IMG/VR virus record: IMGVR_UViG_3300048028_000126
Coordinates: 1-23,322 of that record
Length of the DNA: 23,322 bases
Reading direction: 5' to 3' (one strand)
Origin: a virus
Each line of letters begins with the position of its first letter. The stretch's first letter is position 1. The translations under genes and the position numbers were made by a program. The notes beneath the pieces were generated by a model, which had not been told where the DNA came from, did not search any database, and saw only the letters and a program-made list of their open reading frames with translations. Positions 13,432 to 16,947 of the stretch are shown here, in pieces.

Positions 13432-13462
13432 AGTATACTTTTATTCTATTTATATGTCAAGG
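13432..13462 (-). promoter_or_regulatory. Sigma70-like promoter (19-bp spacer)
   Basis: Minus strand TTGACA (13457-13462) and TATACT (13432-13437), spacer 19 bp, longer than the optimum. It would drive the tagged nuclease-like gene at 13402. The exact late element TATAAATA lies within its spacer. Confidence 0.5.
13449..13456 (-). promoter_or_regulatory. T4-type late promoter TATAAATA
   Basis: Exact TATAAATA on the minus strand, 47 bases before the ATG of the capsid-tagged nuclease-like gene and directly next to the TTGACA at 13457-13462. It overlaps the exonuclease stop codon. It would start the late operon of tagged proteins running left. Confidence 0.75.
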
Positions 13463-14127
13463 GAATTGTGAGAATTTTCTTCATTATATTGAGCGATAGT
13501 TTCACGTAGAGGACGAACCCAGTTGTCACGGTGTTCGATAAACACCTGTGGTTCATGATTGTCTACGGATATGATAGTGACAAGTTGTGTGATGGGACGA
13601 CCTGTGCGTTCTTCCCACATAATTGCATAGGCAGATTCTTGCATGAAATAGTTCTTGATCCAATCAAGACGTTTTGGTTTCATAGATGTTTTAAAATCGA
13701 TGATAGATAACTGACCGTCAAACTCAGCAACACAATCCACACGCCCAGCGACACCCAGATGGTTGGAGTAGAGTGGTGCTTCCTGTGCATATACTCTGCC
13801 AATACGATCATCAAGAATGGGTTTAAGATCAAGAAAAGAATTAATAATATCTGGAGTATATCCATTTTGGTAGCTCTCATTGTTGTCGATATATTTTTCA
13901 ACTATTTCATGGACACGGGTTCCACGTCCAGATGCACGAGTTGAAATTCGGTTTGCTTCTTCTACACCGACACGAGCACGCCACTTCGCAATAGAATCAC
14001 GAGAGAGAATAGAAAGTACGGTAGTGATTGAAGGTAAGTTCACACCTTCGGGTGTTTTGTATTTACGACCTTGGTCCGTAGTCACGGCGGTCATCTCGCT
14101 CAAGTTCACAGGAACATGTTCAAACAT
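13450..14127 (-). CDS. Cas4/RecB-like PD-(D/E)XK exonuclease, 225 aa
   Basis: I place the start at the ATG at 14125-14127 (GGAT upstream) rather than the TTG four codons earlier. Motifs in order: GRGTRVHEIVEKYI with H73; AQEAPLY with E116; GVAGRVDCVAEF with D131; and LSIIDFKTSMKP with D144 and K146. This is the H-x-x-E/D-...-(D/E)xK order of the Cas4/RecB-nuclease (PDDEXK_1) family; a QxxxY-like helix follows at about 160 (MQESAYAI). These are metal-dependent DNA exonucleases; the phage version likely serves recombination, repair or host DNA breakdown. It has its own strong sigma70 promoter (14155-14183), so expression is probably early. No Cys cluster for Fe-S binding, unlike true Cas4. Confidence 0.8.
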   Translation of the reverse strand: MFEHVPVNLSEMTAVTTDQGRKYKTPEGVNLPSITTVLSILSRDSIAKWRARVGVEEANRISTRASGRGTRVHEIVEKYIDNNESYQNGYTPDIINSFLDLKPILDDRIGRVYAQEAPLYSNHLGVAGRVDCVAEFDGQLSIIDFKTSMKPKRLDWIKNYFMQESAYAIMWEERTGRPITQLVTIISVDNHEPQVFIEHRDNWVRPLRETIAQYNEENSHNSLDI

Positions 14128-14154: not shown

Positions 14155-14183
14155 ATTATACGTTATTAAAACGTATCTGTCAA
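14155..14183 (-). promoter_or_regulatory. Sigma70 promoter, consensus
   Basis: Minus strand TTGACA (14178-14183), 17-bp spacer, TATAAT (14155-14160), both hexamers perfect. It lies 28 bases before the exonuclease start codon, in a 70-bp gap. Confidence 0.85.
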
Positions 14184-14197
14184 GTATATTTGTTAAT

Positions 14198-14329
14198 TTA
14201 TTTTAATGGGTTAGAGTCATTTTTTTCTAACTCACGTCGTTCCTTTTCTAAAAGGATATAAGAGACTAAGCTAGTTACAACAACTACTATACCTACTATC
14301 ATAAAGAAACATTTTATAAACGTTAACAT
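14198..14329 (-). CDS. Small single-span membrane protein, 43 aa
   Basis: Read by hand. ATG at 14327-14329 with AGAGGT five bases upstream, ending at TAA 14198-14200. The product begins MLTFIKCFFMIVGIVVVV and continues TSLVSYILLEKERRELEKND: one transmembrane helix of about 22 residues and a short charged tail. Function unknown. The ribosome binding site lies just after the large structured RNA at 14352-14515 (22 bases from the end of its closing stem), so the RNA could be a leader of this gene or an independent RNA followed by it. Microproteins like this in phages may act on host membrane complexes. Confidence 0.6.
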   Translation of the reverse strand: MLTFIKCFFMIVGIVVVVTSLVSYILLEKERRELEKNDSNPLK

Positions 14330-14351
14330 AATTTACCTCTGGTGATAAGAA

Positions 14352-14515
14352 TCCCCACAAGTACAGGGCTCCGAAGGGTACTTTATGTGTCGGTGAACCG
14401 TAACTAACTGCTTGGCATTTTCACATGCACGTTTTGAGAGATCGCAGTTTTAAGTTAGTGCGCGATGGTTGGCGCATTGTTCATCTCGTGTACCGAGCCC
14501 TGTACTGTGTGGGGA
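14352..14515 (-). ncRNA. Structured RNA element of 164 nt closed by a 20-bp stem, next to tRNA-Ala
   Basis: Arms 14352-14371 and 14495-14515 pair as 12 bp plus 8 bp with one bulged base. Inside, nested pairs are: 14377-14381/14490-14494 (GGTAC/GTACC), 14394-14398/14479-14483 (TGAAC/GTTCA), 14403-14409/14453-14459 (ACTAACT/AGTTAGT), and hairpins 14415-14418/14425-14428 and 14460-14463/14472-14475. A competing helix 14406-14411/14444-14449 (AACTGC/GCAGTT) excludes the ACTAACT helix. On the minus strand the element begins three bases after the tRNA-Ala CCA and ends 22 bases before the 43-aa ORF. No long ORF inside. It is probably cotranscribed with the tRNA and cut off by tRNA processing. I do not recognise the class. 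Strand is inferred from neighbours. Confidence 0.65.
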
Positions 14516-14518
14516 AAC

Positions 14519-14594
14519 TGGTGGAGTTAGAGGGAATCGAACCCACGACCTTCTGGATGCAAACCAGACGCTCTCCCTACTGAGCTATAACCCC
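14519..14594 (-). tRNA. tRNA-Ala(UGC)
   Basis: Complete cloverleaf: acceptor GGGGTTA/TAACTCC including the G3:U70 wobble pair that marks alanine tRNAs, D stem GCTC/GAGC, anticodon loop TTTGCAT (anticodon UGC), TTCGA in the T loop, discriminator A and encoded CCA. One T-stem U-U mismatch. A late promoter lies 17 bases upstream (14611-14618); the structured RNA follows directly. Confidence 0.92.
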
Positions 14595-14610: not shown

Positions 14611-14618
14611 TATTTATA
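14611..14618 (-). promoter_or_regulatory. T4-type late promoter TATAAATA between two tRNA genes
   Basis: Exact TATAAATA on the minus strand, between tRNA-Gly and tRNA-Ala. It would start RNA about 10 bases before tRNA-Ala and so also produce the structured RNA late in infection. AT-rich surroundings make a chance match possible. Confidence 0.55.
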
Positions 14619-14715: not shown

Positions 14716-16131
14716 TTAATCGCATCCTAATTCGGAACGTGAGTCATCATCATTATTAGTGACACACAGACCACTTGGTAGCTCTGTCGGTACATATCGC
14801 ATCAACTCAGGATCGTATAGACTTGTCTCTAAGAATGTAACTAGGTTAGAGATTTCCTCTTCAGTCAAGTCAAGTGGTGTGAATCGATAGTCTAGGTCAC
14901 TAACCTCTACATCTGGGTTTTGAGGAGTTGCCGCAACTTTATATCGTACGACCTCTTCTACACTAGTAAATGATGCGCCATGGCCAAATACAGTAGTATC
15001 TATAAGGTTGTAAAGTGGCGGTACTTTGAACGCATACTTCTCCATATCGTCACCCGTAAATCCGGATCGACCTTCTCTTACACCATCCGGCACTTCACCA
15101 ATAATGTCGTCCCACATGTCTAGGTCATGGAATCCAAGTGTCATGAATACTTCGGTTGCCATAGAACCAACGGGTGATGACAGGGCGGGTCCATTATGAC
15201 AACCAGCGCAGTTACCTTTACCAAAGAACACTTTTGCACCTTCAACTTCTTCTATTGTCAGTGCATCTTCATTACCGCGTAAGAATTCTTGGAATGGTGC
15301 GCGGTTTGCAAGGATAGTCCTCTCGTATGCGGCAATCGCGAGTGCGGCAGCTTCTAACATATCGTGCGGTTGCGATGTGCCATATGCCGCTTCGAACATC
15401 ATCTGATACTTCTCATTGGTGGTAAGTATAGAACCTTCTTCCACATTCATTCGGTGAACGCCTAGACCCGCGACTGCCTGTGTCTCAAGACCAGACAACC
15501 CTCTTAGGTTGGCTTCCTTCGGAGTACCTTCCGTGAAGTGACGATCTGGGTCAATACCTATGTTCACAATACCACCAACTTCATTACCGAACTGACCATT
15601 CCAAAGCATAACTTCTTGGTAGGCAGTATTCAGTACTGTAGGTGATGTTACTGGTTGCACATCAGCATCTTCTGGATTAATTCCTTCAGCAAGCATACGA
15701 TGATTGAATCCGATACCACCTTCACCGATACCCTGACGAATACCAGACTTGAATCCATTCTGACCATTGTGGCAAGATGCACATGACCATGTATTCTCCA
15801 AGTCTGTCTTATTAGTTTCGGTAGATGTGATTCCCGTCTCATGATAAATGAACTTGCCCAACTCCACCTTTTCGGCAGTGATTGGGTTACTGGGGTCTTG
15901 GGGGATGTTTAGGAAGTCGTCACTCTCAGGTAGCAGGTATCCTTCATAAGAACCTGTAGGTGACGTGGTTCCCATAATTTCTTTAAGTTCTCCGATAGAG
16001 ACTTCAAGTGCTGTCGGTTCTGGTGCGGGTAGAGGTGCCACCGCCACTGGCTCTGGTGCGGAATCCGAAGTGCCACCCGAACAGGCGCTAAGGACGGTCG
16101 TGCATAATACTACAGATAGTAGGTTTTTCAT
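14716..16131 (-). CDS. Di-haem cytochrome c peroxidase / MauG-family lipoprotein, 471 aa
   Basis: I start at the ATG at 16129-16131 (SD AGAGG), not the TTG six codons earlier. MKNLLSVVLCTTVLSAC is a lipoprotein signal with the lipid-bearing Cys at residue 17, then a Pro/Ala linker. The body follows the bacterial CCP/MauG plan: KVELGKFIYHETG, first haem site CASCH (117-121), PTVLNTAY, second haem site CAGCH (308-312), and FKVPPLYNL then FGHGASFTSVEEVVRYK near the end. These enzymes reduce H2O2 to water, or oxidise protein substrates, in the periplasm, taking electrons from small cytochromes c. Length is normal for the family. Haem must be attached by the host Ccm system. It is headed by its own sigma70 promoter and followed by tRNA-Gly. 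Phage-borne copies are unusual. Confidence 0.9.
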   Translation of the reverse strand: MKNLLSVVLCTTVLSACSGGTSDSAPEPVAVAPLPAPEPTALEVSIGELKEIMGTTSPTGSYEGYLLPESDDFLNIPQDPSNPITAEKVELGKFIYHETGITSTETNKTDLENTWSCASCHNGQNGFKSGIRQGIGEGGIGFNHRMLAEGINPEDADVQPVTSPTVLNTAYQEVMLWNGQFGNEVGGIVNIGIDPDRHFTEGTPKEANLRGLSGLETQAVAGLGVHRMNVEEGSILTTNEKYQMMFEAAYGTSQPHDMLEAAALAIAAYERTILANRAPFQEFLRGNEDALTIEEVEGAKVFFGKGNCAGCHNGPALSSPVGSMATEVFMTLGFHDLDMWDDIIGEVPDGVREGRSGFTGDDMEKYAFKVPPLYNLIDTTVFGHGASFTSVEEVVRYKVAATPQNPDVEVSDLDYRFTPLDLTEEEISNLVTFLETSLYDPELMRYVPTELPSGLCVTNNDDDSRSELGCD

Positions 16132-16173
16132 AATATAAGAGCCTCTCAAATACTCTTTTCAATTTAGAAAGGA

Positions 16174-16213: not shown

Positions 16214-16900
16214 TTATTTATTTTTAACTCGTTTGGTCGCCTGCTTCTCTGCATCAATCCACTTCTGTGCCTTCTTAGAGACAGGTTTGTCAGTGAACTT
16301 CTTAGCATCACGGAATGCAGTTAGAGTTTCTTTCTCGTAGTCTTTACCTTCAGAGTTATCTACAACCAAGAAGTTAGGTTTACCAAACATACGTTGGAAC
16401 TTACCGATATTGCGTTGTACTGCTTTCCAATACTCAGTAACACCTTTCTCGCCTAGGGTACGAGCACGTTTTGCATCACGGCTGATAGCAGTATCAAGGT
16501 CTGTGTTTACGAAAATCATTGCGACATCGTAACCCATGGCCTTTACTTTCTTTGCCTGTTCAGCAATTTTATCTGGGTCTTTACCAGTACCATCTACTAC
16601 GAGACCAAGACGACCTTTCAGATAACGCTCTTCCCTTTTCCCTGTAAGCTTCTTTGCCTTACCACGGAGTTCTTGTCCTTTCGGAGAGAAGATGTTGTCC
16701 GGAGTCATATCCATATCAACCTTCTTCATAGCAGCTTCGAATGCGTCATCTGAGTTGACAACCTTGTAACCCATAGAAGTCAGACCTGTCTTACCGACGA
16801 TGAATGACTTACCAGAACCTGGCCCACCCGCAAGAAAGATTGCCTTGAAGATTGCTGGATCGTTTACGCCTTCGTCTAAGAATGTTTTAAAAGATTTCAT
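16214..16900 (-). CDS. Capsid-tagged P-loop kinase (polynucleotide kinase / zeta-toxin-like), 228 aa
   Basis: The open frame extends further, but the ATG at 16898-16900 gives MKSFKTFLDEG, the leader seen on its partners, so I choose it; the late promoter at 16932-16939 supports this. Next comes a kinase: FLAGGPGSGKSF (Walker A, residues 25-32), VVNSDDAFE (D51-D52, substrate end), LVVDGTGKDPDKI, and the Arg-rich lid NTDLDTAISRDAKRART. This is the layout of phage P-loop kinases related to polynucleotide kinase and zeta toxins, which phosphorylate RNA/DNA ends or UDP-sugars. Lys-rich C-terminus. With the KWDG ligase-like protein it could form an end-healing and sealing pair delivered by the virion; that is inference. 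Confidence 0.8.
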   Translation of the reverse strand: MKSFKTFLDEGVNDPAIFKAIFLAGGPGSGKSFIVGKTGLTSMGYKVVNSDDAFEAAMKKVDMDMTPDNIFSPKGQELRGKAKKLTGKREERYLKGRLGLVVDGTGKDPDKIAEQAKKVKAMGYDVAMIFVNTDLDTAISRDAKRARTLGEKGVTEYWKAVQRNIGKFQRMFGKPNFLVVDNSEGKDYEKETLTAFRDAKKFTDKPVSKKAQKWIDAEKQATKRVKNK

Positions 16901-16931
16901 TGTAATAGTATCTGTTGATGGTAGTTGTATG

Positions 16932-16939
16932 TATTTATA
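16932..16939 (-). promoter_or_regulatory. T4-type late promoter TATAAATA before the tagged kinase
   Basis: Exact TATAAATA on the minus strand, 31 bases before the kinase ATG. It directly follows a run of seven T (16941-16947, minus strand) that adjoins the tRNA-Ser CCA and may help end the tRNA transcript. Confidence 0.75.
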
Positions 16940-16947
16940 CAAAAAAA

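Follow-up and report, generated by a model that had tools for sequence, protein, structure and literature searches.

A previously uncatalogued structured RNA family beside tRNA-Ala in uncultured marine-type T4-like phages

Background

What is the large structured element that directly follows a tRNA-Ala gene in an uncultured phage: an RNA in its own right, a trailer of the tRNA, or a leader of the genes behind it? We analyzed this question in a virus record from IMG/VR, 23,322 bases long (the window, meaning the whole stretch of DNA under study). An earlier note on this DNA had described a large structured RNA beside tRNA-Ala that it could place in no known class.

A structured RNA unmatched in Rfam

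The ~165-base RNA beside tRNA-Ala is a new, previously uncatalogued RNA family. Searching the window region with all models of Rfam 15 (cmscan, E ≤ 10) returned the tRNA and sub-threshold noise and left the RNA itself unmatched, with the tmRNA, 6S, RNase P, and riboswitch models likewise finding nothing there; ARAGORN identified no tmRNA in the window, and the RNA as it occurs in seven divergent relatives drew no Rfam 15 match either (E ≤ 5). Folding of the minus strand, which the earlier note had proposed, yielded a stable structure for positions 14340-14519, at -64.9 kcal/mol vs -40.3 ± 4.0 for shuffles (z = -6.2), with 0 of 200 shuffles folding as well. The negative Rfam search, the fold, and the strong co-variation described below uphold the note's description: no known family matched, and the 20-bp stem does co-vary.

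Members of the family are ~150-195 nt long, measured from the tRNA CCA to the putative terminator, and occur as 1 copy per genome in uncultured marine-type T4-like phages. In the window, the mature 3' end probably lies within the UUCUUAU after 14352. Features of the locus are collected in Table 1.

Table 1. Features of the RNA locus in the window, with the evidence or remarks attached to each
Feature	Position	Strand	Remarks
Late promoter motif, T4 type, TATAAATA	14611..14618	minus	Exact motif, 16 nt upstream of tRNA-Ala; putative unit start
tRNA-Ala (UGC)	14519..14594	minus	CCA encoded, G3:U70 identity pair; ARAGORN; Rfam RF00005, 69.7 bits
Structured RNA	14350..14518	minus	169 nt in model; fold z -6.2, covariance models R1/R2, Rfam negative
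P1 5' arm	14495..14515	minus	20 bp, bulged C14507; partner 14352-14371; double changes in 16/20 pairs, 96.7% of cells paired
P1b 5' strand GGUAC	14490..14494	minus	Partner 14377-14381; 3/5 pairs co-vary, 100% of cells paired
P2 5' strand UGAAC	14479..14483	minus	Partner 14394-14398; 5/5 pairs co-vary, 89.5% paired
P3 hairpin UGCGC...GCGCA	14459..14476	minus	G-C/G-U variation only, zero double changes
P4a 5' strand UAACU	14453..14457	minus	Partner 14401-14405; 4/5 pairs co-vary, 93% paired
P4b 5' strand CUGC	14444..14447	minus	Partner 14408-14411; 4/4 pairs co-vary, 86.5% paired
Conserved core GAUCUCUCAAAACGUGCAUGUGAAAAUGCC	14414..14443	minus	Largely single-stranded apart from P5
P5 GCAU/AUGC	14425-14428/14415-14418	minus	Inside core; invariant in 23 members
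P4b 3' strand GCAG	14408..14411	minus	Partner 14444-14447
P4a 3' strand AGUUA	14401..14405	minus	Partner 14453-14457
P2 3' strand GUUCA	14394..14398	minus	Partner 14479-14483
P1b 3' strand GUACC	14377..14381	minus	Partner 14490-14494
P1 3' arm GAGCCCUGUACUUGUGGGGA	14352..14371	minus	Followed by UUCUUAU, terminator-like end
43-aa ORF, predicted single-span membrane protein	14198..14329	minus	Downstream of RNA
TTGACA-17-TATAAT promoter	14155..14183	minus	Before exonuclease; separates exonuclease transcription from RNA
PD-(D/E)XK exonuclease gene (phrog_298)	13450..14127	minus	Syntenic marker downstream of RNA

Homologs in viral and cellular genomes

A blastn search against 50,697 phage records produced one match, in the T4-like phage C48C1 (Kyanoviridae, 156 kb), covering 40 nt at 95% identity, with tRNA-Ala, RNA, small ORF, and exonuclease following each other as in the window. 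The matching 40 nt are the internal core, and the flanking stems in C48C1 are almost completely different yet still pair. Core patterns together with exonuclease neighbors identified 56 instances in IMG/VR contigs, 31 of them distinct by flank. Covariance models built from two sequences (R1) and from 23 sequences (R2) recover the homologs; the score of the most divergent one is 29 bits (E = 0.0003). The C48C1 annotation (OQ984149.1) places a gene for a "hypothetical protein," CDS0083 (59600-59695), with its start inside the structured RNA (59507-59668); this is probably a spurious gene call.

Two sets of candidates were rejected. The BLAST match in Synechococcus phage ACG-2014f is a 19-nt chance match with neither core nor fold, and 64 extra loci on viral contigs, found with looser core patterns, were attributed to chance because they lacked both a covariance-model match and a tRNA directly upstream. 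The exact core pattern gave no hit in cellular genomes, and R2 was likewise without a hit in the 14 genomes that the peroxidase search had brought up. Across 274 genomes of one class, R2 returned three short (84-nt), hairpin-like matches on a single contig and nothing else; these three similar matches (G072 contig 110, 41986-42802) are probably an unrelated repeat.

Co-variation of the helices

The co-variation alignment comprised 23 distinct sequences with a mean identity of 70% and a minimum of 51%. In the structure of Table 1, 95.0% of cells were paired, 32 of 48 pairs had changes on both sides, and 181 cells carried double changes, counts that lean towards the structure because the alignments were fitted to it, so that the argument rests on slid and simulated controls. 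Structures slid by 1-3 columns left 31-51% of cells paired. Column shuffles never reached the paired-cell, double-change, or covariation measures, and the extra pair-type count was reached in 5 of 500. Tree-preserving simulations with independent columns and the observed number of changes gave 78% paired cells and 13 pairs (vs 95% and 32 in the data); none of 200 reached any of three measures (z 6.8-21.6), and the outcome was the same with 30 sequences including divergent ones. In a per-pair, phylogeny-aware test of covariation, 2 of 48 pairs reached E < 0.05, both in the structure; the number is this small because substitutions are few, and significance resides at the level of the ensemble. 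Under these ensemble controls, co-variation, which the earlier note had suggested testing, is strong in the 20-bp stem as well as in other helices. Helix cells contained 35 G-U vs about 3 A-C combinations, which points to selection on the minus-strand RNA and fixes the strand. Because evolution keeps the shape while the sequence changes, a genuine RNA gene is very probable; its transcript, shared with one tRNA-Ala, appears to be a late one.

The two arms seen earlier, forming 20 bp with a single bulge and separated by 123 bases, were found at 14515-14495 and 14371-14352 with a bulged C. Among the helices said to nest inside them, 14490-14494/14377-14381 (P1b) and 14479-14483/14394-14398 (P2) held and co-vary, but the 7-bp helix 14403-14409/14453-14459 turned out to be a register slip. 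P4a (14453-14457/14401-14405) and P4b (14444-14447/14408-14411, the helix that had appeared to exclude its neighbor) are compatible and can coexist; the apparent exclusion reflects the slip in P4, and the switch that was built on it therefore falls. Co-variation supports P1, P1b, P2, P4a, and P4b. P3 and P5 are plausible helices, with double changes absent from both; P3 is missing in some members (L024 and L106), and P5 is neither supported nor refuted because it never varies in 23 members. A conserved purine stretch (GAGA or AAGA) sits before the P2 5' strand. We also considered a pseudoknot of AGA(U/C) with (A/G)UCU between J1/2 and the core, which was suggestive by eye in some members and broken in others, and rejected it.

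A candidate late transcription unit

The motif TATAAATA occurs 5 times in the window, always on the gene strand, vs 1.6 expected, and tRNA-Ala is the only one of the window's 11 tRNAs to have it directly upstream. All distinct members examined carry a motif, TATAAATA in 27 and TATATATA in 3, ahead of the tRNA or tRNA pair that comes before the RNA, and in 49 of 54 homologs the distance from one of the two motifs to the tRNA downstream is ≤75 nt. In the five exceptions, the motif is farther upstream (n = 2), precedes a preceding tRNA (n = 2), or is absent from the stretch examined (L088). We interpret TATAAATA as the late promoter in the lineage of C48C1 and the window because tail, baseplate, head, and SSB genes are preceded by it, at a distance of 21-63 nt, in C48C1, whose annotation includes a late promoter regulator gene, and because the published cyanophage and T4 late promoter consensus is the same motif (PMC2984593).

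The tRNA occupies 14519-14594, and the RNA starts three bases after its CCA, as the earlier note had it. The note's further idea, that tRNA processing would release the RNA at its 5' end, is plausible given that the RNA follows CCA without a gap in most members and after 0-20 nt across the family. The 3' end of the RNA is formed by a GGGGA-like P1 arm, part of a long stem in all members, and of the 16 nt that follow, 5-13 are T, although this tract is only moderately U-rich in some members. From the position of the motif, the start after CCA, and the 3' end, the unit would read late promoter, tRNA-Ala, RNA, terminator. Upstream of the exonuclease, many homologs have TTGACA followed at 17 or 18 nt by a TATAAT-like hexamer. 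Judged from sequence, the picture would thus shift from an RNA in a tRNA island, as drawn when the late promoter was missed, to a late transcription unit of its own with one tRNA.

The conserved core and a proposed mode of action

The core, UCUCUCA...GCAU...AUGCC, is nearly invariant, with 92% mean identity in 30 diverse members vs overall means of 66-73% for unpaired and paired positions, and most of it is left unpaired in the ensemble computed for the window RNA. Its complementarity to E. coli 16S, 23S, and 5S rRNA, to phage tRNAs, and to the window's other genes did not exceed that of shuffled cores; the best duplex, with tRNA-Leu (1/60), is unremarkable because 15 targets would yield such a value by chance. 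As convincing complementarity is absent, protein binding or a tertiary core is favored.

We consider it reasonably likely (a probability of about 0.6) that the RNA is a free-standing late phage ncRNA acting in trans; tRNA 3' processing together with termination would set it free, and the core would be its binding site. The family, its structure and strand, the order of promoter and tRNA, the promoter before structural genes, and the variable helices around a fixed core were computed; from these we infer termination, processing, stability, protein binding, and a role in trans. The late promoter TATAAATA would drive a short transcript of tRNA-Ala(UGC) with the structured RNA as its 3' part, and tRNA 3' maturation would cut after CCA and free the RNA 5' end. 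P1 and the U-rich stretch may end transcription and protect the RNA from exonucleases at either end. The interior domain P2-P5 would then display the near-invariant core to a binding partner, most likely a protein, and binding there could give the RNA a function in trans during late infection, like that of other tRNA-neighboring phage ncRNAs.

The most serious alternative, although in our judgment an unlikely one, treats the RNA as an elaborate 3' trailer belonging to the late transcript of tRNA-Ala, in which P1 serves as terminator or exonuclease block and the interior is passive or related to processing, with no function in trans. Such a trailer would fit the P1 and U-rich tract that end every unit and the placement of the RNA always directly after a tRNA, but it would leave the interior core as the most conserved part, above P1. 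A terminator needs neither 150 nt, five helices, nor a conserved single-stranded core, and members tolerate inserts and a missing P3, whereas loss of the core was not seen among them.

The link to tRNA-Ala

A tRNA lies directly upstream in 54 of 55 flanks, and the last flank holds a shortened tRNA-Ala. Where the flank yielded a tRNA call (54 cases), the RNA follows Ala(UGC) 51 times and Asp(GUC) 3 times. Members carry 3-12 tRNAs (7-12 in nearly complete ones), and exonuclease relatives without the RNA carry 0-3. Two tRNA-Asp(GUC) members, L139 (896-1140) and L061, have a partial tandem duplication of the P1 5' arm.

Two members, L138 (13158-13231) and L140 (9256-9331), have differing tRNA-Ala(UGC) genes of 74 and 76 nt, both with G3:U70, between flanks that are identical over 900 bases upstream and 300 downstream; the 74-nt type also precedes the RNA in L029 and L089. 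This exchange of the tRNA between identical flanks argues that tRNA-Ala is required here, by the phage generally or by the RNA. The RNA might accordingly act on or with its own tRNA-Ala, as a chaperone, a charging or decay sensor, or T-box-like, with the pair as the functional unit. The prevalence of Ala(UGC), the retention of UGC and G3:U70 in the swap, and the Ala codon contained in the invariant GCAU speak for such a partnership, which we nevertheless rate as improbable: the tRNA-Asp-linked members have the same core, complementarity between core and tRNA-Ala is not in excess, and GCAU can be explained by P5 too. Pairing of the core GCA with the tRNA-Ala anticodon was rejected, as co-variation with the anticodon is absent, the tRNA-Asp-linked members keeping the same GCA.

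More speculatively, and with small odds, the locus may be a two-part late device, in which the phage tRNA-Ala(UGC) and the co-transcribed RNA cooperate and the RNA, by binding either a protein (from host or phage) or the tRNA itself, steers late translation or tRNA decay; the tRNA gene would then usually be exchangeable only for another Ala(UGC) gene.

Neighboring genes and a host lead

The earlier note had also allowed for a leader of the 43-aa membrane protein. Such a role, as riboswitch or attenuator in the 5' leader for this protein or for the exonuclease, would suit an RNA upstream of both genes in the same orientation, yet we hold it to be very improbable, since the RNA has a terminator-like stem with a U-rich tract, most members have a separate TTGACA-17-TATAAT before the exonuclease, and the late promoter lies upstream with a tRNA in between. 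Several relatives, moreover, lack a small ORF and have just a promoter ahead of the exonuclease. C48C1 has a similar ORF of 47 aa after the RNA, and the 43-aa ORF is probably a gene separate from the RNA. A DNA element or chance hairpin, which the long palindrome of P1 might bring to mind, is hardly credible against the double changes, the strand-specific use of G-U, the conserved loop core, and an R2 score of 180 bits on the minus vs 24 on the plus strand.

In L024 (2452-2510) and L106, the exonuclease start codon follows a TAATAT -10 box by ~6-8 nt, a spacing suggestive of a leaderless mRNA. The window encodes, directly upstream of the tRNA pair, a di-haem cytochrome c peroxidase (14716-16149, minus strand; PF03150, E = 4e-22), an unusual auxiliary metabolic gene with solved-structure relatives such as 3o5c and a place in no PHROG family; its counterpart in C48C1 (57990-59411) is 68% identical. 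The closest relatives are a gene of a Haliea MAG (78%) and Alteromonas and Glaciecola genes (about 50%), which hints at a host among marine gammaproteobacteria, to be taken as a lead only, because the Haliea contig may be of viral origin. Beside the tRNA cluster, positions 16214-16942 (minus strand) encode a Zeta-toxin/polynucleotide-kinase-like P-loop protein (PF06414, PF13671).

Comparison with known phage RNAs

GOLLD is likewise a structured ncRNA found beside tRNAs in phages and prophages, with a marine member downstream of tRNA-Met and an expression that increases during lysis (PMC12286853). It differs from the present RNA (150-195 nt) in often exceeding 800 nt and in having a conserved 3' half and other conserved sequence. 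ROOL, also phage-encoded and near tRNA islands, is an elaborate pseudoknotted nanocage RNA, whereas the present RNA is predicted to be a small junction RNA with one long closing stem. Neither the GOLLD nor the ROOL covariance model matched in the window region (E ≤ 10) or over the RNA of seven relatives (E ≤ 5).

The T4 species 1 and 2 RNAs (rnaC, 139 nt, and rnaD, 119 nt) are small stable RNAs of a T4-family phage, and rnaD begins 1 nt behind the final tRNA in its cluster, much as the present RNA lies directly 3' of a phage tRNA. They have other folds, are associated with tRNA-Arg rather than tRNA-Ala, and do not visibly share the core; R2, run unfiltered on T4 69500-73500, scored at best 8.2 bits (E = 1.1), outside rnaC and rnaD. 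Phage K and ICP1 produce unassigned, abundant ncRNAs, those of phage K near tRNA genes (PMC9241854, PMC7567579); these belong to other phages and were compared by description, and the ICP1 transcript, ~800 nt from a phage without tRNAs, is unlike the present RNA. As R2 does not match rnaC or rnaD and the GOLLD and ROOL models do not match here, we regard the family as new, of a kind that is known but functionally unexplained.

Structured RNAs by phage tRNAs, small and large (T4 species 1 and 2, GOLLD, ROOL), still await a function. The family described here is short, single-copy, and strongly co-varying, with a fixed core, a putative dedicated late promoter, and one linked tRNA. These traits make the question of function testable, as the size suits mutagenesis, probing, and pull-down, and the promoter would give the time of action.
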